Assembly: GCA_036504895.1 (NCBI GenBank)
Contig: DASXUJ010000099.1
Location: 1 to 42,543 of the forward strand
Reading direction: 5' to 3'
From: Syntrophorhabdaceae bacterium
GTDB taxonomy: Bacteria > Desulfobacterota > Syntrophorhabdia > Syntrophorhabdales > Syntrophorhabdaceae
Length of the DNA: 42,543 bases
The translations under genes and the position numbers were made by a program. The notes below the pieces were generated by a model, which was given only the letters and a program-made list of their open reading frames with translations, did no database searches and was not told where the DNA came from. This document shows positions 30,548 through 39,003 of this stretch, piece after piece; position 1 is the stretch's first letter; every line of letters starts with the position of its first letter.

Positions 30548-31468
30548 TTAGGGCCTCGGATAGAGTCCTGCCCGCTCCACGATCTGGGGAACCTTCTCCT
30601 CCCACTCGATGGCCATGATATGCACACCCGCCACGCCTTTAATGCCCTTCATCCTCTCGATGATCTCGAGGCATATGTTGATGCCTTCCTCCGCCACCTT
30701 CTCCTTGGCCACACCTTTCAGGCGCTCTATGTGCTCCTCGGGCACATCCATGCCGGGCACGGAGGTCTTCATATAGCGCGCCATGCCGATCGATTTATAG
30801 GGGGTAACACCGGCAAGGATATAGATCTTCTCATGGACCCCAAGGTCCCGGACCTGCTCCATCCATTTCTCGAATTTATCCACATTAAAGACACACTGGG
30901 TCTGAACGAACTCGGCGCCGGCGGCTGCCTTCTTCGCGAGACGCATGGCCCTTATTTCAAACGGATCAGCAAAGGGGTTCTCCGCGCACCCGACAAACAT
31001 ACCGGGTCTGCCCGCCTTGATCTCCTCCCCGTTTACGAACTTCCCCTCGTCCCTCATGCGCCGCACGGTCTGGATGAGCTGCATGGAATCTATGTCGAAG
31101 ACATTTTTTGCGCCCGGGTTGTCCCCGAAGCTCTGGTGGTCGCCGGAGAGGCAAAGGAGGTTATTGATGCCCCATGCCGCCGCTCCCAGGATGTCGCTCT
31201 GGGCGGCAATCCTGTTCCGGTCCCTGCAGACCATCTGCATGATCGGGTCGAACCCCATCTGTTTCAGGATTAAGGACGCGGCAAAGCTGCTCATCCTTAC
31301 CACGCTCGTCTGGTTGTCCGTGACGTTTACCCCGTCCACGTACCCTTTAAGGAAGCCGCCCTTCTTCTTAACCACTTCCGGATCTGTTCCCCGGGGAGGA
31401 CCGCACTCGGACGTGACGGCAAAGGCCCCGCTGGCAAGGACTCTCTCCAGATTGCTCGCTGTGCTCAT
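30548..31468 (-). CDS. metF: Methylene-tetrahydrofolate reductase, MetF
   Basis: 306 residues from ATG 31468, chosen because it overlaps the metV stop by 4 bp and has GGAGG 8 nt before; an earlier in-frame start adds 19 residues with no family match. MetF reduces CH2-THF to CH3-THF with FAD. SECGPPRGTDPEVVKKK, DGVNVTDNQTSVVRMSS (THF and FAD contacts), MVCRDRNRIA, LCLSGDHQSFGDNPGAK, and QTQCVFNVDKFEKWM are conserved. With MetV it forms the acetogen-type enzyme that receives electrons from HdrA/MvhD rather than NAD(P)H directly. In a syntroph it may run backwards. Confidence 0.94.
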   Translation of the reverse strand: MSTASNLERVLASGAFAVTSECGPPRGTDPEVVKKKGGFLKGYVDGVNVTDNQTSVVRMSSFAASLILKQMGFDPIMQMVCRDRNRIAAQSDILGAAAWGINNLLCLSGDHQSFGDNPGAKNVFDIDSMQLIQTVRRMRDEGKFVNGEEIKAGRPGMFVGCAENPFADPFEIRAMRLAKKAAAGAEFVQTQCVFNVDKFEKWMEQVRDLGVHEKIYILAGVTPYKSIGMARYMKTSVPGMDVPEEHIERLKGVAKEKVAEEGINICLEIIERMKGIKGVAGVHIMAIEWEEKVPQIVERAGLYPRP

Positions 31469-32133
31469 ATCTTTAAATCCTCCCTGATCCTTTTTCTCGG
31501 TCCCCCATCCCTGCTCGTGGACCAATCCTTCAAAGGCTGGACCTCAAGGTACTTGTCGAGCATATTCATCTCTTTGAATCTGTCGACTATGAGCTGCCAT
31601 GCGCAGGGCGTATCCTTATTGATCTCGCACTTCCCCCCCTGGGAGCCGCCGCAGGGGCCGTTGAAGATGCTTTTCGCGCACCGGGTCACGGGGCAGATGC
31701 CCAGGGTCCGGTCGAGGATACAATTGCCGCAGCCGAGGCAACGCTCGGTCCATACGCCGTGTTCTTCGGTCACTCCGTCGAAAGTGGTGTTGACCGCGGG
31801 CAGCACGATCTTCTCCCTGTAGTGCTCCCCCACGAACTGGATGCCGCACCCGCAGGCCATGGATATGATAATCTCGTACTCCTTTATTATCGGCTTCAGG
31901 CTCTCTACATATTCAGGGTCACAGTTTCTTTCGAGGGTGTGCTCCTTTACCTCTACCGGCGATCCTTCTTTCTGTCTGGCGAGTCTTATCTCGGATGCGA
32001 GGACCGCCACTTCCTTGGCGCCTCCGGCCGCGCAGACCGTCACGCACTCGTTGCAGCCGAGGAGAAGTATCTTCGAGTAAGGCTTAACCATGGCGAGGAT
32101 CTCTTCAAAAGGTTTTCGGTTCGCTACTATCAT
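31465..32133 (-). CDS. metV: MetV, zinc/iron-sulfur partner of MetF
   Basis: 222 residues. MetV-type subunits, the C-terminal-domain family of methylene-THF reductases, give MetF its electrons via FeS clusters. C27NEC30-x3-C34 near the N-terminus; ACGCGIQFVGE; and a dense motif RCLGCGNCILDRTLGICP with following CAKSIFNGPCGG are all visible and characteristic. SD AAAGGAG 6 nt before the ATG. Lies between mvhD and metF; the metF ATG overlaps its stop. With MvhD, HdrA, HdrB and HdrC upstream, this is the Moorella-like MetFV-Hdr gene set. Confidence 0.92.
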   Translation of the reverse strand: MIVANRKPFEEILAMVKPYSKILLLGCNECVTVCAAGGAKEVAVLASEIRLARQKEGSPVEVKEHTLERNCDPEYVESLKPIIKEYEIIISMACGCGIQFVGEHYREKIVLPAVNTTFDGVTEEHGVWTERCLGCGNCILDRTLGICPVTRCAKSIFNGPCGGSQGGKCEINKDTPCAWQLIVDRFKEMNMLDKYLEVQPLKDWSTSRDGGPRKRIREDLKI

Positions 32134-32179: not shown

Positions 32180-32602
32180 TCATGGATCGAGGCGCTTTCT
32201 CCCGGGGCTTGGCCCCAGGTCTCTTACTTTTGCCGTCATTTCCCGTGCAATCTCGGCGAACCGCTGGCCCTGAGCGGAGGACAAGTTGAACATGGCGACC
32301 CGCTCTCCCCCGATCCCGCATTCGTCGAGGAGCTGCTTCACATACTCCACCCGTTTTCTCGCCCTGAGGTTGCCTTTCAGATAATGGCAGTCCCCCTCGA
32401 GGCACCCCACGAGACAGACCCCGTCCGTCCCGCTTTCAAAGGCTTTCAATATATGGATTATATCGACCCTGCCCGTGCAGGGGACCTTTACGATCTTCAC
32501 ATTCGTCGGGTACGTCAATCTCATCGAACCTGCCAGGTCCGCGGCGGTATATCCTCAAAATTCGCAGCAAAAGGCGATTATCTCAGGCTCGAACCTTTCC
32601 AT
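32180..32602 (-). CDS. mvhD: MvhD-type hydrogenase iron-sulfur subunit, probable selenoprotein
   Basis: Read through an in-frame TGA (32555-32557), ATG 32602 gives 140 residues, the normal length: MERFEPEIIAFCCEF, U16, then GYTAADLAGSMRLTYPTNVK. In ordinary MvhD the motif is CCNWCxYxGADLAG, so the TGA stands exactly at the second Cys of the CxxC-type motif. The ATG has an AAGGAG SD, 18 nt after hdrA. A hairpin suitable as SECIS begins 13 nt after the TGA. MvhD carries electrons from a hydrogenase or formate dehydrogenase to HdrA via a [2Fe-2S] cluster. Sec in a related subunit, VhuD of Methanococcus, is known. Standard calling would report only 32180-32524. Alternative: a Cys-to-stop mutation. 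Confidence 0.8.
32525..32541 (-). promoter_or_regulatory. SECIS-like hairpin after the mvhD TGA
   Basis: Minus-strand CGGACCT-GGC-AGGTTCG: a 7-bp stem with one G-U pair and a 3-nt GGC loop, starting 13 nt after the TGA and lying in the coding sequence. Bacterial SECIS elements lie 10-15 nt after the UGA with a short stem and a G-containing loop, so position and form fit; the sequence is not conserved enough for proof. Confidence 0.55.
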
Positions 32603-32620
32603 TCCCTCTCCTTATCCCGT

Positions 32621-35600
32621 CTATAATACGGCAGCCTCGTCCGGTTCCTCTTCGCACAGGGCCTGTTCCTTCTTTATAATCTGCACATCTCTATAGTGCA
32701 TCAGGTCTATCGCTTTCGCGGGACACTCGGCAGCGCATGAGCCGCAGCCCTTGCACTTGGTAATATCTATCTCCGCCTCGCCTTTCTCGTTTATTACCGG
32801 CACCGAATAGGGGCAAACCCTGACGCAGGTAAGGCAGGCCGCGCACTGCTCGGCATCCACATGGGCCACGATACCGCCCGCGGCCACCTGCTCCTTCGAC
32901 AGGATGGTGAGCGCCCTTGCTACCGCGCCTTCCGCCTGGGCAATCGACTCTTTCAGGCTCTTCGGTGAATGACAAAGGCCCGCGACAAACATGCCGTCAG
33001 AGGCGAAATCGACGGGGCGCAGCTTCATGTGGGCTTCGAGGAAAAAGCCCTCGTTGGTCCTGGGTAGTTTGAGAAGGGTGGCGAGCTCCTTATTCTCTCT
33101 CGGTATGATCGCGCTGCTCAGGGCTATGAAATCGGCCTGAAATACCACTTCTTCGCCTACCGAAGGGTCGTGGGAGGCCACGAAGAGGCCGCCTTCCCGC
33201 GCCTCGACTACAGGAGGCGCCTGCTTTTCGAAACGGATGAACCGCACCCCGAGCCTTCGTGCCTTGAGGTAATATTTTTCGAGGAACCCATAAGTCATCA
33301 TATCCCTGAAAAAGATCACCACGTCCGTTTCCGGCGTTTTCTCCTTGATCGCGATGGCGTTTTTCACGGCGCTTGTGCAGCAGATACGGCTGCAGTAAGG
33401 CCTTTCATCATTACGGGAGCCCACGCACTGGATCATGGCGATCCTCGTCGCATTGGAAAGTCCCCTGCCCTCGAGCCTCTCTTCCAGCTCCATCTGCGTC
33501 ATGACCCGCTCGTCTTCACCGTAAAGATAGGTCCCCGCGGGCTTCAGCTCCTCCCCGCCCGTGGCGAGGACGACCACCCCGTGAGCGATCTTTTCGTATC
33601 TTCTCTCCGGACCGATTCTGAAGCCCGTCTCGAAACTTCCCTTGAAGCCGGAATGGTCGACCGCCTCGGCATTCGTGATCACATGGATCAGGGGATGGCT
33701 TGTAACCCGCTCCATTGTTCCGGCAAGGTATTCCTGAAGATCGAGACCGTCCACGGTATGGAAGAGGCCTCTCAGGTTCCCTCCCAGGGCCTCCGATTTT
33801 TCAGCGAGAAAAACTTCGAAATTCTGGTTGGCCAGGTGCAGTGCCGCAGTCATACCCGCGATGCCGCCTCCCACCACGAGGGCTTTCTTGTTTACATCGA
33901 GCATCACTTCTTTGAGGGGCTTGATATAGTTGGCGTTCGTGACCGCCATCCGCACCAGGTCCTTTGCCTTCCGGGTTGCGCCCGGCTTATCCTGCATATG
34001 GACCCAGGAGCATTGGTCCCTGATATTCGCCATTTCAAAAAGGTATTTATTGAGTCCCGCATCCCGAATGGTAGCCCTGAATAAAGGCTCGTGGGTCCTG
34101 GGGGAGCAGGAGGCAACGACGACCCTGTTTATGCCGTGCTCGTCGATGAGCTTCTTCATCTTCTCCTGCGTGTCCTGGGAGCAGGTGAAAAGGTTCTCGT
34201 CGGAGAGCACTACATTCGGGAGACTCCTCGCGTAGGCCTGGACCTCGGGGACATTGACCACGCCCCCGATATTGACGCCGCAGTTGCAGACGAAAACGCC
34301 GATCCGGGGCTCTTCCCCTTCCACGTCCTTCTCTTCGGGAAGGACTTTAATGGTAAGGTCTTTACCGCGCGCCTCCGAGATGATCGACCCCGCCTCGCAC
34401 GCGGCGCCGCTTGCCTGGATCACGGTTTCGGGTATGTCTTTCGGTGATTCGCAGGCGCCGCTCACATAGATGCCCGGACGGGACGTAGTGAGCGGGTTCG
34501 ATCGGTCGGTCTTTATAAAGCCGTATTCGTTAAGATCAAGATCGAGTACGGACGCGAGCCCGGCAAGGTGCTCGGCGGGCCTCATGCCTACGGAGAGGAC
34601 CACGAGGTCGAACGACTCCGTTTGAAGCTCCCCGGCTTCATCGACATAGACGATCTCCACGTCTTTCGTCTCATAATCCTCGAGCACCCGGGATACGAGG
34701 GATTTCACGTACCTCACCCCGTGGTCGCCTTTCGCCCTCTCGTAATACTGGTCGAACCCTTTCCCGAAGGCGCGGACGTCCATATAGAAGATGGTGGGCT
34801 CGATATCGTTCTGGTGCTCTTTCGCGATGACCGCTTCTTTGGTGGCATACATGCAGCAGACGGACGAGCAGTATTCGTTCACCTTGTCCCTGCTCCCCAC
34901 GCATTGGAGAAAGGCGATCTTTTTCGGTATCTTCCCGTCGGAGGGCCTCATGATGACACTCGCCGTGGGGCCGGTGGCGGAGAGAATCCTCTCGAATTCC
35001 ACGCTGGTCACCACATTGGGATATATGCCGTACCCCAGCTCGGGCTTTTGCGTCGCGTCATAGGGCTCAAAACCGCTCGACACGATGATGCTCCCCACTT
35101 CGATGGTCTCCTCCGTGGGGGTCTCGAAATAATTTATCGCTTCGGGCTTGCAGAACTCTTCACAGATCCTGCATCCGAGACATTTCCGACAGTTGAGGCA
35201 GCGCTCCGCCTCGCGCCTGGCATCCTCCGCCGTCAGGGGGTGAAAGACCTCCTGAAAACCGGAACGTTCGGGAACAGGCAAGGACGGTATGGCCACCCTT
35301 GCCCGCTTCTCTATGAAGGATGGAATGTCCTCCACGAGCTTATCCTCTTTCGCCCTTCTGCCCGCTTTGAGGTTGCGACCTTCGAGAAAGCGGATGATCG
35401 ATTCCGATGCTTCCTTGCCCTGGGCAATGGCGTCGATGGCCATCTTCGGCCCTGTTACCACATCGCCGCCGGCAAACACCCCGGCGACCGTGGTCTCGAG
35501 GCTCACCGGGTCCGCCTTCACCCGCCCGTCCCTCAGGACCTCAAGACCCGGCAGGTCTTTTAAAAAGCCCGTATCCATGCTCTGCCCGATGGCGAGTATG

Positions 35601-37045
35601 ACCGTGTCCGCGTCGTAAGCGATGGTGACCGATTCATCGAAGCGGGGGCTGAATCTGCCCGCCTCGTCAAATACATCCGTGCACCTTCTGAACTCGACGC
35701 CTTTCACTGCGCCGTCCTTCACCTGTATCTCATTCGGGCCCCACGACGTGTGGACCCTCACGCCTTCCTCCACTGCCTGGTCGACCTCCCACTTGTGGGC
35801 AGGCATCTGGTCCCATGTTTCGAGGCACGCCATATGGACTTCTTTGGCTCCGAGCCTGCGGGCCGTAAGGGCCACGTCTATGGCCACGTTGCCGCCGCCG
35901 ATGACGAAGACCTTCTCCCCCATCTCCACGGGCTCGCCTGTTGCCACGGACCGGAGAAAGGCGATGCCTCCGATCACTCCCCGGGCGTCCTCGTTATCGA
36001 GGCCGAGGCTCCGGCCGCCATGGGCGCCCGCGCCGATAAAGACCGCATCATAGGAGTCGTGGATCTCGTTGACCCCTATATCCTTGCCTACTCGTGTATT
36101 ATATTTGACCTCGATGCCCATCTTCTCGACGATGGAGACCTCGCGGGCCAATTCTTCCTTGGGAAGCCTGTAGGCGGGAATGCCCACGTAGAGCATGCCG
36201 CCCAGCTTGTCGTGGGCCTCGAAGACGGTCACGCCATAGCCGGCCTTGCGAAGCTCCAGGGCACATTCGAGTCCCGCGGGCCCTCCGCCGATTACGGCGA
36301 CCTTCTTTCCCTTATCGGGCCCTGTCGCGGGTACGGGAATATCCCTCACGCCCGCCTCGTAATCGGCCACGAAGCGCTTCAGGGCGCATATGGCGACCGG
36401 CTGATCCACCTTTCGTCCCCTCAGACACTCTTCCTCGCAGGGGTGGGCGCATATGCGGCCTATGACGCCGGGGAAAGGGAGCCTTTCCCTGATAAGGTCG
36501 AGGGCTTCAAGAAATCTGCCCTCGGCGATGAGACCCACGTAATCTCTCGCGTTGAGATTTACGGGGCACCTGTTCACGCAGGGCGCGATCTCCCTGTCGA
36601 TGGCATAGGTCGAGGGTATGGCCTGGGGAAAGCTGATATAGGCGCCGGTCCTCCTGGAAAGACCCACATTATAGTCATTGCTCACGTCGATCGGACACTG
36701 GGGGGCGCACAGGGAGCAGGAGGTACACTTCTCCGGCATCACTCTGCGGGGCCTCCGCCTCAAAGTTACTTTGAAATTACCCGGCTCACCTTCAAGACCC
36801 ACCACATCCGTATTCATAAGAAGGTCTATATTGGGGTTCCGGCCCACCTCCACCAGTTTGGGCGCCATGATACACATGGAGCAATCGTTGGTGGGGAACG
36901 TCTTGTCGAGCTGCGACATCTTACCGCCGATATTCGGCTTCTCATCGGCGAGATACACCTTGTACCCCGCTTCCACGAGATCGAGGGATGCCTCCATCCC
37001 GCCTATGCCGCCGCCGATTACGAGTACCTTTCCTACCTTTTCCAT
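32621..37045 (-). CDS. hdrA: Giant HdrA fusion flavoprotein with an inserted GltD/NfnB-like module
   Basis: 1474 residues, longer than ordinary HdrA. Order: HdrA FAD site GGGIGG (11-16) and [4Fe-4S] motif CTSCSLCAPQCP (107-118); inserted glutamate-synthase-small-subunit/NfnB-like module about 150-635 with C156/C160/C199/C203/C207, FAD site GGGPAG (253-258), NAD(P) site GGGNVA (383-388) and a further Cys cluster (616-632); HdrA core continued 640-900 (CVGSRD, CSSVCC); second complete HdrA from about 913 (VCNCGVNIGG 919-928, GGGIAG 1059-1064, CVGSRN, ICCTSA); two C-terminal ferredoxin clusters (C1401-C1411, C1431-C1441). HdrA is the flavin bifurcation centre; the insert suggests NAD(P)H as electron source or sink. 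Start ATG 37045; 54 nt after the winged-helix gene, 18 nt before mvhD. Confidence 0.9.
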   Translation of the reverse strand: MEKVGKVLVIGGGIGGMEASLDLVEAGYKVYLADEKPNIGGKMSQLDKTFPTNDCSMCIMAPKLVEVGRNPNIDLLMNTDVVGLEGEPGNFKVTLRRRPRRVMPEKCTSCSLCAPQCPIDVSNDYNVGLSRRTGAYISFPQAIPSTYAIDREIAPCVNRCPVNLNARDYVGLIAEGRFLEALDLIRERLPFPGVIGRICAHPCEEECLRGRKVDQPVAICALKRFVADYEAGVRDIPVPATGPDKGKKVAVIGGGPAGLECALELRKAGYGVTVFEAHDKLGGMLYVGIPAYRLPKEELAREVSIVEKMGIEVKYNTRVGKDIGVNEIHDSYDAVFIGAGAHGGRSLGLDNEDARGVIGGIAFLRSVATGEPVEMGEKVFVIGGGNVAIDVALTARRLGAKEVHMACLETWDQMPAHKWEVDQAVEEGVRVHTSWGPNEIQVKDGAVKGVEFRRCTDVFDEAGRFSPRFDESVTIAYDADTVILAIGQSMDTGFLKDLPGLEVLRDGRVKADPVSLETTVAGVFAGGDVVTGPKMAIDAIAQGKEASESIIRFLEGRNLKAGRRAKEDKLVEDIPSFIEKRARVAIPSLPVPERSGFQEVFHPLTAEDARREAERCLNCRKCLGCRICEEFCKPEAINYFETPTEETIEVGSIIVSSGFEPYDATQKPELGYGIYPNVVTSVEFERILSATGPTASVIMRPSDGKIPKKIAFLQCVGSRDKVNEYCSSVCCMYATKEAVIAKEHQNDIEPTIFYMDVRAFGKGFDQYYERAKGDHGVRYVKSLVSRVLEDYETKDVEIVYVDEAGELQTESFDLVVLSVGMRPAEHLAGLASVLDLDLNEYGFIKTDRSNPLTTSRPGIYVSGACESPKDIPETVIQASGAACEAGSIISEARGKDLTIKVLPEEKDVEGEEPRIGVFVCNCGVNIGGVVNVPEVQAYARSLPNVVLSDENLFTCSQDTQEKMKKLIDEHGINRVVVASCSPRTHEPLFRATIRDAGLNKYLFEMANIRDQCSWVHMQDKPGATRKAKDLVRMAVTNANYIKPLKEVMLDVNKKALVVGGGIAGMTAALHLANQNFEVFLAEKSEALGGNLRGLFHTVDGLDLQEYLAGTMERVTSHPLIHVITNAEAVDHSGFKGSFETGFRIGPERRYEKIAHGVVVLATGGEELKPAGTYLYGEDERVMTQMELEERLEGRGLSNATRIAMIQCVGSRNDERPYCSRICCTSAVKNAIAIKEKTPETDVVIFFRDMMTYGFLEKYYLKARRLGVRFIRFEKQAPPVVEAREGGLFVASHDPSVGEEVVFQADFIALSSAIIPRENKELATLLKLPRTNEGFFLEAHMKLRPVDFASDGMFVAGLCHSPKSLKESIAQAEGAVARALTILSKEQVAAGGIVAHVDAEQCAACLTCVRVCPYSVPVINEKGEAEIDITKCKGCGSCAAECPAKAIDLMHYRDVQIIKKEQALCEEEPDEAAVL

Positions 37046-37099: not shown

Positions 37100-37456
37100 C
37101 TACGCTCTTGTTCTGAATGATGCATCTCTTCCCACGTGACCTGATATCTCGACCCGGTTTCTCCTCATAAGTTCCTTCAGGTGACGGAAACAGAGGTCCT
37201 CCCTGAGCCCGAGCTTCGCGGACAAGCCCCTGACCGTATCATCGCCGCCCTGCAGCGCTTCCAGGATTCTCGCCTTCTCCAGCGACATGGCGAGAAGGGG
37301 ATCGAAGACCAGGGAGAACTGCCTGTCCGTAAATTTCTCCCCATAGACGTTCCCCTCTTTGAGGGCGGTCTTTCTCTCGAGGAGCCTCGTCAGCTTGTCA
37401 GCCCCTTCAGGGTCATATTTTTTGATGAAATCAAGTTTTTCTTGCATATCCGTCAT
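37100..37456 (-). CDS. Winged-helix protein encoded inside the hdr operon
   Basis: 118 residues. N-terminal helices (residues 1-60, with a hydrophobic SLVFDPLLAMSLEKARIL stretch) and a winged helix-turn-helix near 62-110: ARILEALQGGDDTVRGLSAK, LGLREDLCFRHLKELMRRN, ISGHVGRDASFRTRA, matching the ArsR/TrmB-like fold. No metal-ligand Cys cluster. Placed between hdrB (42 nt) and hdrA (54 nt) on the same strand, so made with the complex. Could be a local repressor, a redox-linked regulator, or a structural subunit that kept the fold. I know no established role for it. Confidence 0.75.
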   Translation of the reverse strand: MTDMQEKLDFIKKYDPEGADKLTRLLERKTALKEGNVYGEKFTDRQFSLVFDPLLAMSLEKARILEALQGGDDTVRGLSAKLGLREDLCFRHLKELMRRNRVEISGHVGRDASFRTRA

Positions 37457-37498: not shown

Positions 37499-38386
37499 TT
37501 ATGCCGGAGTTCGAAGGGAGACCTCCGGGACGATTTTCTTCACCTTCTCCGCGATCCCGGAGGGGGCTATGATATGGGAGCCTTTTCCGGAAAGCCTTCC
37601 GAAGAGGGCAAGCTCGAAGATCTCGGAGAGAAAGAGGACAGGCAGGTTCCCTTGCTCCCTCCCGAGGTAGGGAAGGATATCGAGGTTAAGCTGGCACAGC
37701 GGGCAGGACGTGACCACCGCGTCCGCGCCGACCTTGAGCGCCATGTCCATAATCTTGCCCGAAAGCCTCAGCGTCATATCCTTGTTCGTGAGGGTCTTGC
37801 TCGCCCCGCAGCACTCCATCTTATAGGGCCAGGGCACTACCTCCGTGCCCGCCGCCCACAGGAGGGTATCCATGCTCTCCGGGTTCTCCTTGTCGTCAAA
37901 GGCGTCCATTCCCATGATGCGGGTAAGCACGCACCCGTAGTAGGGCACGACTTTCAGGTCCGACAGGTCATAGACGATGCTTCCGGCAATCCGTTCTATA
38001 CCCACATATTCGTGGAAAACCTCCATGATGTTCCTAACCTCTGCGGAGCCCAGGCATTTCAGCGGTGCGATGGCGCGGTTGACCTCGTCCCTCAGCGTTT
38101 TGTCCGTCCGGAGTTTTTCGTTGGTAATCTTCGATTTGTTGTAGCAGGCCGAGCAGGGGGCAAAGAAAGGCCGGTCAAGGCCCTCGGCGAGGCTGAGGTT
38201 CCGCGCCGTAAGGGCATAAGAGAGTGTGTCGTCTATGGTGGGCGCCGCCGAAGCCCCGCAGCACGACCAGTCGTCAAGCTCGATAAGCTCTACCCCGTAG
38301 AGCGAGAATACCTCCTTGATCGATTGCTCGTAAAACTTGCTCGAAGTCTTCATGGAACAGCCGGGGTAATAGGTAAGTTTCCTCAT
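37499..38386 (-). CDS. hdrB: Heterodisulfide-reductase-like subunit HdrB
   Basis: 295 residues with two complete CCG domains (Cx31-39CCx34-35CxxC): C10, C42-C43, C78-x2-C81 and C152, C192-C193, C228-x2-C231. In methanogens these bind two noncubane [4Fe-4S] clusters that cleave the disulfide; in MetFV complexes of acetogens the natural acceptor is unsettled. LTYYPGCSM and SCCGASAAPT are typical of HdrB. All eight ligand cysteines are kept, so catalysis at the cluster is plausible. Its ATG overlaps the hdrC stop by 4 bp. Confidence 0.94.
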   Translation of the reverse strand: MRKLTYYPGCSMKTSSKFYEQSIKEVFSLYGVELIELDDWSCCGASAAPTIDDTLSYALTARNLSLAEGLDRPFFAPCSACYNKSKITNEKLRTDKTLRDEVNRAIAPLKCLGSAEVRNIMEVFHEYVGIERIAGSIVYDLSDLKVVPYYGCVLTRIMGMDAFDDKENPESMDTLLWAAGTEVVPWPYKMECCGASKTLTNKDMTLRLSGKIMDMALKVGADAVVTSCPLCQLNLDILPYLGREQGNLPVLFLSEIFELALFGRLSGKGSHIIAPSGIAEKVKKIVPEVSLRTPA

Positions 38387-38934
38387 ATGCCCTGACCCCT
38401 CTCTTTCTTTTCGGCTTCTATACGGGCAAAGATCTCCTTGAACCCGTTGCGGTCCTTTATGTTGTGGGGGAGTATCCCGAGCCTTCCCCTGACCATCATT
38501 CCCACGCCCATCTTCGTATCTTCAAAGAAATTCTTCTTGTCCACCTTATACTTAATGACCGCCTCGATCTCATGGAGCCTGCCGTGCTTACGCACACTCT
38601 CCAGGAAAAGCCGATCGAACTTCCACGTATCTTCCTCGGCCCCTGTGCGTTCTTTCATGGCAATTTTTCTGATTGTATCGAAGACATGGGCGATATCGAT
38701 GTCATTGGGGCACCTCACGCTGCACGTGACGCACTGGAGGCAGGTCCATACGGTCTTCGACGCGAGGACACGCTCCCTCTCTCCCAGGATGATGTACCGT
38801 ATAACCCTGTGGGGGTAAATATCCATCTCTTTCACCACCGGGCAGCCGACCGTACACCGGTAACACTGGTAACATCCGGATATCTTCTGCCCGGAGGCAT
38901 TCTCCATCTCGTTAAGAAAAGAAAGATCCTTCAT
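38383..38934 (-). CDS. hdrC: Heterodisulfide-reductase-like subunit HdrC
   Basis: 183 residues from ATG 38934 (AAAGGA 6-7 nt before it); an ATG six codons upstream lacks an SD. Two [4Fe-4S] motifs: C21-x2-C24-x2-C27-x3-C31-P and C65-x2-C68-x2-C71-x3-C75-P. Soluble ferredoxin-like subunit that links HdrA to HdrB. The C-terminal part is helical (GIERIAG-like segment lacking membrane spans). First gene of the operon hdrC-hdrB-wHTH-hdrA-mvhD-metV-metF, with a probable promoter at 39004-39033. Confidence 0.93.
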   Translation of the reverse strand: MKDLSFLNEMENASGQKISGCYQCYRCTVGCPVVKEMDIYPHRVIRYIILGERERVLASKTVWTCLQCVTCSVRCPNDIDIAHVFDTIRKIAMKERTGAEEDTWKFDRLFLESVRKHGRLHEIEAVIKYKVDKKNFFEDTKMGVGMMVRGRLGILPHNIKDRNGFKEIFARIEAEKKERGQGI

Positions 38935-39003
38935 GATATGTCCTTTACCCATCTTAAATACAAGTTAATAATATCGCTGTCCTGGTAATCAGGTGTGCGC
39001 AAC

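Follow-up and report, generated by a model that had tools for sequence, protein, structure and literature searches.

An in-frame UGA codon almost certainly read as selenocysteine in the MvhD subunit of an HdrCBA-MvhD-MetVF operon from Syntrophorhabdaceae

The mvhD gene of this Syntrophorhabdaceae genome is a single frame of 140 codons whose only interruption is a TGA at codon 16, and the question raised by the window (the whole 42,543-nucleotide stretch of DNA analysed here) is whether this codon breaks the gene, is bypassed by a later start, or is translated. An earlier note, made from the sequence alone, had proposed that MvhD probably contains selenocysteine (Sec), and this proposal is now supported by the presence of the sel genes, a bacterial SECIS element (bSECIS) that is frozen among orthologues, an exchange of Cys and Sec at the position in question, and the lack of an intact duplicate gene. 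We conclude that the in-frame UGA is almost certainly read as selenocysteine.

The frame begins with an ATG at 32602-32600 on the minus strand, 18 nt from the stop of hdrA, and a Shine-Dalgarno sequence lies in front of it (Table 1). The segment before the TGA encodes MERFEPEIIAFCCEF, the segment after it continues in the same frame with GYTAADLAGSMRLTYPTNVK, and the frame closes with its own TGA at 32182-32180. The internal UGA falls on a Cys of the CxxC motif of the family. When translated through this codon, the protein matches the Pfam FlpD profile (PF02662) with 169 bits (cut-off 22.3) over profile positions 1-123, that is, all 123 of them, and its AF2 model (pLDDT 92.6) is closest in fold to 5odc_D (TM 0.93), followed by 7bkb_F (TM 0.91). 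The Shine-Dalgarno sequence, the 18-nt spacing, the ATG and the in-frame continuation described by the earlier note all agree with the sequence. The truncation that it expected of standard gene finders would leave an open reading frame of 114 aa, starting at ATG 32524.

Table 1. Coordinates of mvhD, its recoding signals and the neighbouring operon genes within the window
Feature	Position	Strand	Description or basis
hdrC-like 4Fe-4S protein	38383..38952	-	PF13534/PF13183; TIGR03290 below cut-off
hdrB-like, two CCG domains	37499..38386	-	PF02754; TIGR03288 below cut-off
hdrA, long form, with GltD/NfnB-like NAD(P)H oxidoreductase insert	32621..37045	-	1474 aa, no internal stop
Shine-Dalgarno AAGGAG of mvhD	32608..32613	-	read from sequence
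mvhD	32180..32602	-	140 aa with predicted Sec16 (UGA); MvhD/FlpD electron-transfer subunit, predicted [2Fe-2S]; full-length PF02662 match
In-frame UGA, mvhD codon 16 (C13-E-F-U16)	32555..32557	-	UGA/Cys pattern in orthologues
Bacterial SECIS hairpin CGGACCU-GGC-AGGUUCG	32525..32541	-	loop 32532-32534, 20 nt after UGA; bSECIS rules and codon conservation
metV (between mvhD and metF)	31465..32133	-	PF12225
metF, methylene-tetrahydrofolate reductase	30548..31525	-	PF02219

The closest named relatives of this mvhD come from a MAG labelled Syntrophus sp. SW.010 (87% identity), which matching gene sequences put in the genus of our genome, and from several labelled Syntrophorhabdaceae, and codon 16 is TGA in 25 of the 26 family orthologues (at least 65% identity, our own gene included), the sole exception (L157/L063) having TGC. 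Codon 16 is TGC or TGT in more distant orthologues (Desulfobacteraceae among others), which agrees with the earlier statement that the TGA sits where ordinary MvhD has a Cys and represents the Cys/Sec exchange that had been suggested as a check; Ser is found at residue 16 in some MetVF-linked homologues (Dehalococcoidia, Poribacteria and others). Residue 16 thus alternates between Sec, Cys and Ser, and C13, C42, C67 and C72 are invariant in 46 sequences. Among 131 distinct homologues, every internal stop is a TGA and lies either at the column of Cys16 (28 cases) or at that of Cys67 (4 cases), with no TAA or TAG inside the frame except one at its natural end, and hence TGA16 is not a product of chance. 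The whole-genome search yielded a TAA in one paralogue of 39% identity and a TAG in one orthologue match, the latter outside the aligned part of that orthologue. The Ser codon that takes the place of Sec is TCN in seven MetVF-linked MvhD sequences. Four homologues (L042, L079, L081 and L089) carry their in-frame TGA at the invariant Cys67 and not at codon 16, and L079 and L081 have in common a strong GGA-loop hairpin some 23 nt downstream of TGA67.

The region downstream of codon 16 carries the second line of evidence. A 7-bp stem (CGGACCU/AGGUUCG) closing a GGC loop starts exactly 13 nt past the TGA, in agreement with the earlier note, and its MFE is -8.2. Published bSECIS rules ask for a loop of 3-9 nt, a stem of 4-16 bp, a G in loop position 1-2, a distance of 16-37 nt from the UGA and an MFE of at most -7.5 (PMC13188914), and the hairpin lies within all of these limits (3-nt loop with G first, 7 bp, 20 nt, -8.2). 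It is important to note that fold energy alone is weak evidence for a SECIS element, given that energy-only folding of the 54-nt region gives z = 0.01 and that a fold as good as the native hairpin is reached by 2.2% of the synonymous reshuffles; it is the comparative evidence that carries the case. Specifically, codons 21-25 (GCG GAC CTG GCA GGT), which encode the hairpin, are free of synonymous change across 27 distinct UGA orthologues and codon 26 is nearly so, and the normalised synonymous diversity of the UGA genes (n=27) is 0.04 at codons 21-26 vs. 0.84 elsewhere, whereas in Cys-codon orthologues (n=18) it is 0.86 vs. 0.83. Correspondingly, pS is 0.036 in the hairpin and 0.67-0.92 outside. 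These codons are frozen in UGA orthologues only. The TGC-bearing L157/L063 has one change within codons 21-26 (GCA to GCC), the pattern to be expected if Sec had recently reverted to Cys and the element were decaying. An Rfam scan of the region returned no RNA family, its single match (Guanidine-III RNA, 13.5 bits vs. a cut-off of 36) being noise.

The machinery for selenocysteine insertion is present in the same genome, which contains selA, selB (C51), a tRNA-Sec with a TCA (UCA) anticodon and two copies of selD, so that all four of the genes (selA, selB, selC and selD) that the earlier note had proposed to look for were found. Of the two selD copies (C108 and C96), one has an in-frame TGA and the other has none; the TGA-bearing copy is likely itself a Sec-containing SelD. 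A full selB match is missing in 9 of 60 relatives, some of which have a UGA mvhD; most of these relatives still show tRNA-Sec or a split selB, which fits incomplete MAGs. The presence of selB is a low-power predictor of a UGA mvhD because nearly all relatives carry both. The genome encodes five FlpD-type copies, two of them with a TGA, namely the mvhD studied here and copy C73. The earlier note had named a second, intact mvhD beside a degenerating one as evidence against its proposal; the other four copies are paralogues only 36-41% identical to mvhD, and hence there is no intact twin. Copy C73 has its TGA at the same codon, is 36% identical, and differs in the sequence after the TGA.

Other explanations of the internal TGA need to be considered. 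If it were a nonsense mutation or a sequencing error, mvhD would be an inactive pseudogene, as might be suggested by the gene having one in-frame stop, close to its 5' end, and the genome having other MvhD copies. However, the same TGA recurs across many genera, and in another family, in MAGs independent of one another, the operon is conserved, the gene has no other internal stops, and purifying selection is strong on both sides of the codon, with pN/pS of 0.14 (pS 0.92) over the upstream codons 2-15 and 0.21 downstream. That is, both flanks of the UGA are coding, and the substitution pattern indicates that selection acts on the read-through protein, with the codons before the UGA under strong constraint. 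The value for codons 2-15 excludes a pseudogene, to which we attach practically no probability, and it also makes it unlikely that translation restarts past the UGA at ATG 32524 (Met27) to yield a 114-aa protein, with the upstream part as a leader. This shorter product is what a standard gene finder lists, yet it would be devoid of residue 16 and of C13, though C13 is invariant, and a restart is hard to reconcile with the amino-acid constraint on codons 2-20 (pN/pS 0.10-0.14) or with codons 21-26 being frozen only where codon 16 is UGA; we consider it very improbable.

It is also conceivable that the UGA is read as a residue other than Sec, through Trp or Cys suppression or a change of the code, and UGA is indeed reassigned in some bacteria. 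Under this explanation, however, one would have to account for UGA still serving as the stop codon of mvhD itself, for the Cys that relatives have at position 16, and for a full Sec machinery and a bSECIS being present, which leaves it scarcely credible.

Hence, we strongly favor the reading of codon 16 as selenocysteine, inserted by SelB and Sec-tRNA(UCA) with the help of the hairpin, and of the product as the [2Fe-2S] subunit that joins HdrCBA to MetVF, and we regard this combined reading as highly probable. The genes hdrC, hdrB, hdrA, mvhD, metV and metF adjoin one another, as in the HdrCBA-MvhD-MetVF methylene-tetrahydrofolate reductase complex, in the order hdrC-hdrB-(118-aa ORF)-hdrA-mvhD-metV-metF. 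The order hdrA-mvhD-metVF is kept in relatives, and metV and metF follow the mvhD of every UGA orthologue with a single exception, for which the flank returned no match. The 118-aa ORF (37100-37456), in the gap between hdrB and hdrA, has a weak helix-turn-helix match and is possibly a regulator of the operon. According to the proposed mechanism, SelB and Sec-tRNA(UCA) would decode UGA16 under the direction of the hairpin starting 13 nt downstream, and the resulting 140-aa MvhD would wire the HdrCBA core, predicted to be electron-bifurcating and with an NAD(P)H-oxidoreductase insert in its HdrA, to MetVF, which in turn would reduce methylene-tetrahydrofolate or, in reverse, oxidise methyl-tetrahydrofolate.

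A [2Fe-2S] cluster is known from MvhD homologues (PMC12350162), and by analogy with the family the present MvhD would hold such a cluster and the corresponding electron path. Sec16 probably sits beside this cluster and is not a required ligand of it, because C13, C42, C67 and C72 are invariant and residue 16 can be Cys, Sec or Ser. In such a position, Sec16 would serve to tune the potential, to withstand oxidation, or as a gate for electron transfer. C13-x-x-U16, the redox motif of the earlier note, may form a thiol/selenol pair. We offer with considerable reserve, as an unlikely extension of this model, that Sec16 acts next to the cluster without being a ligand and there gates or tunes the passage of electrons into the bifurcating flavin of the methylene-tetrahydrofolate reductase complex, and that lineages choose Sec, Cys or Ser by selenium supply and thermodynamic need. 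In any case, a subunit of a complex central to the one-carbon metabolism of anaerobes is rescued here from gene-finder truncation, and a single operon type that occurs with Sec, Cys or Ser offers aligned natural variants for asking what selenium does beside a cluster that feeds flavin-based electron bifurcation.

Sec-containing MvhD is an already known family, of which the present protein is a further, well-supported member. The earlier note was right that Sec is known in VhuD of Methanococcus (PMC2933860, PMC11097638), but Methanococcus is not the sole precedent, since bacterial Sec-MvhD had already been published, with four such proteins in Desulfobacterium autotrophicum (mvhD1, 2, 3 and 5; PMC2702500) and one in Desulfococcus multivorans (PMC5109826), and a 2026 review lists PF02662 with CxxU among selenoproteins (PMC13188914). 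VhuD belongs to the same family and has its CxxU at the same position, although it is archaeal and depends on an archaeal-type SECIS. In the solved VhuD chain 9sfi_K, a non-standard residue (X) occupies the equivalent of position 16 and a second one that of Cys67, both of which would be Sec judging from the VhuD literature; the second is absent from our protein and occurs alone in the four homologues with TGA67, so that another Sec position, comparable to that of 9sfi_K, seems to be in use in bacterial MvhDs. The sulfate-reducer proteins resemble ours in being bacterial MvhDs with a UGA-encoded Sec, next to hdrA and in genomes with sel genes, but the D. autotrophicum clusters involve hdrL/hdrA, fdh, dsr or mvhAG genes, whereas the partners here are metV and metF. 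In the part of the literature that was searched, no MetVF-linked MvhD is named as containing Sec. Another close known system is the HdrCBA-MvhD-MetVF complex that PMC5039349 and PMC6085437, citing Mock et al. 2014, describe from Moorella thermoacetica and which, as far as these citing papers describe it, has the same six subunits encoded together, with Cys in MvhD where ours has Sec and without the 118-aa ORF found here between hdrB and hdrA; the GltD/NfnB-like insert is described here for our HdrA. What the present locus adds to these systems is that the Sec form of this Syntrophorhabdaceae lineage sits in an HdrCBA-MvhD-MetVF operon, together with the exchange of Sec, Cys and Ser at residue 16 against four other invariant Cys and the putative Sec codon UGA67 of some bacterial relatives.
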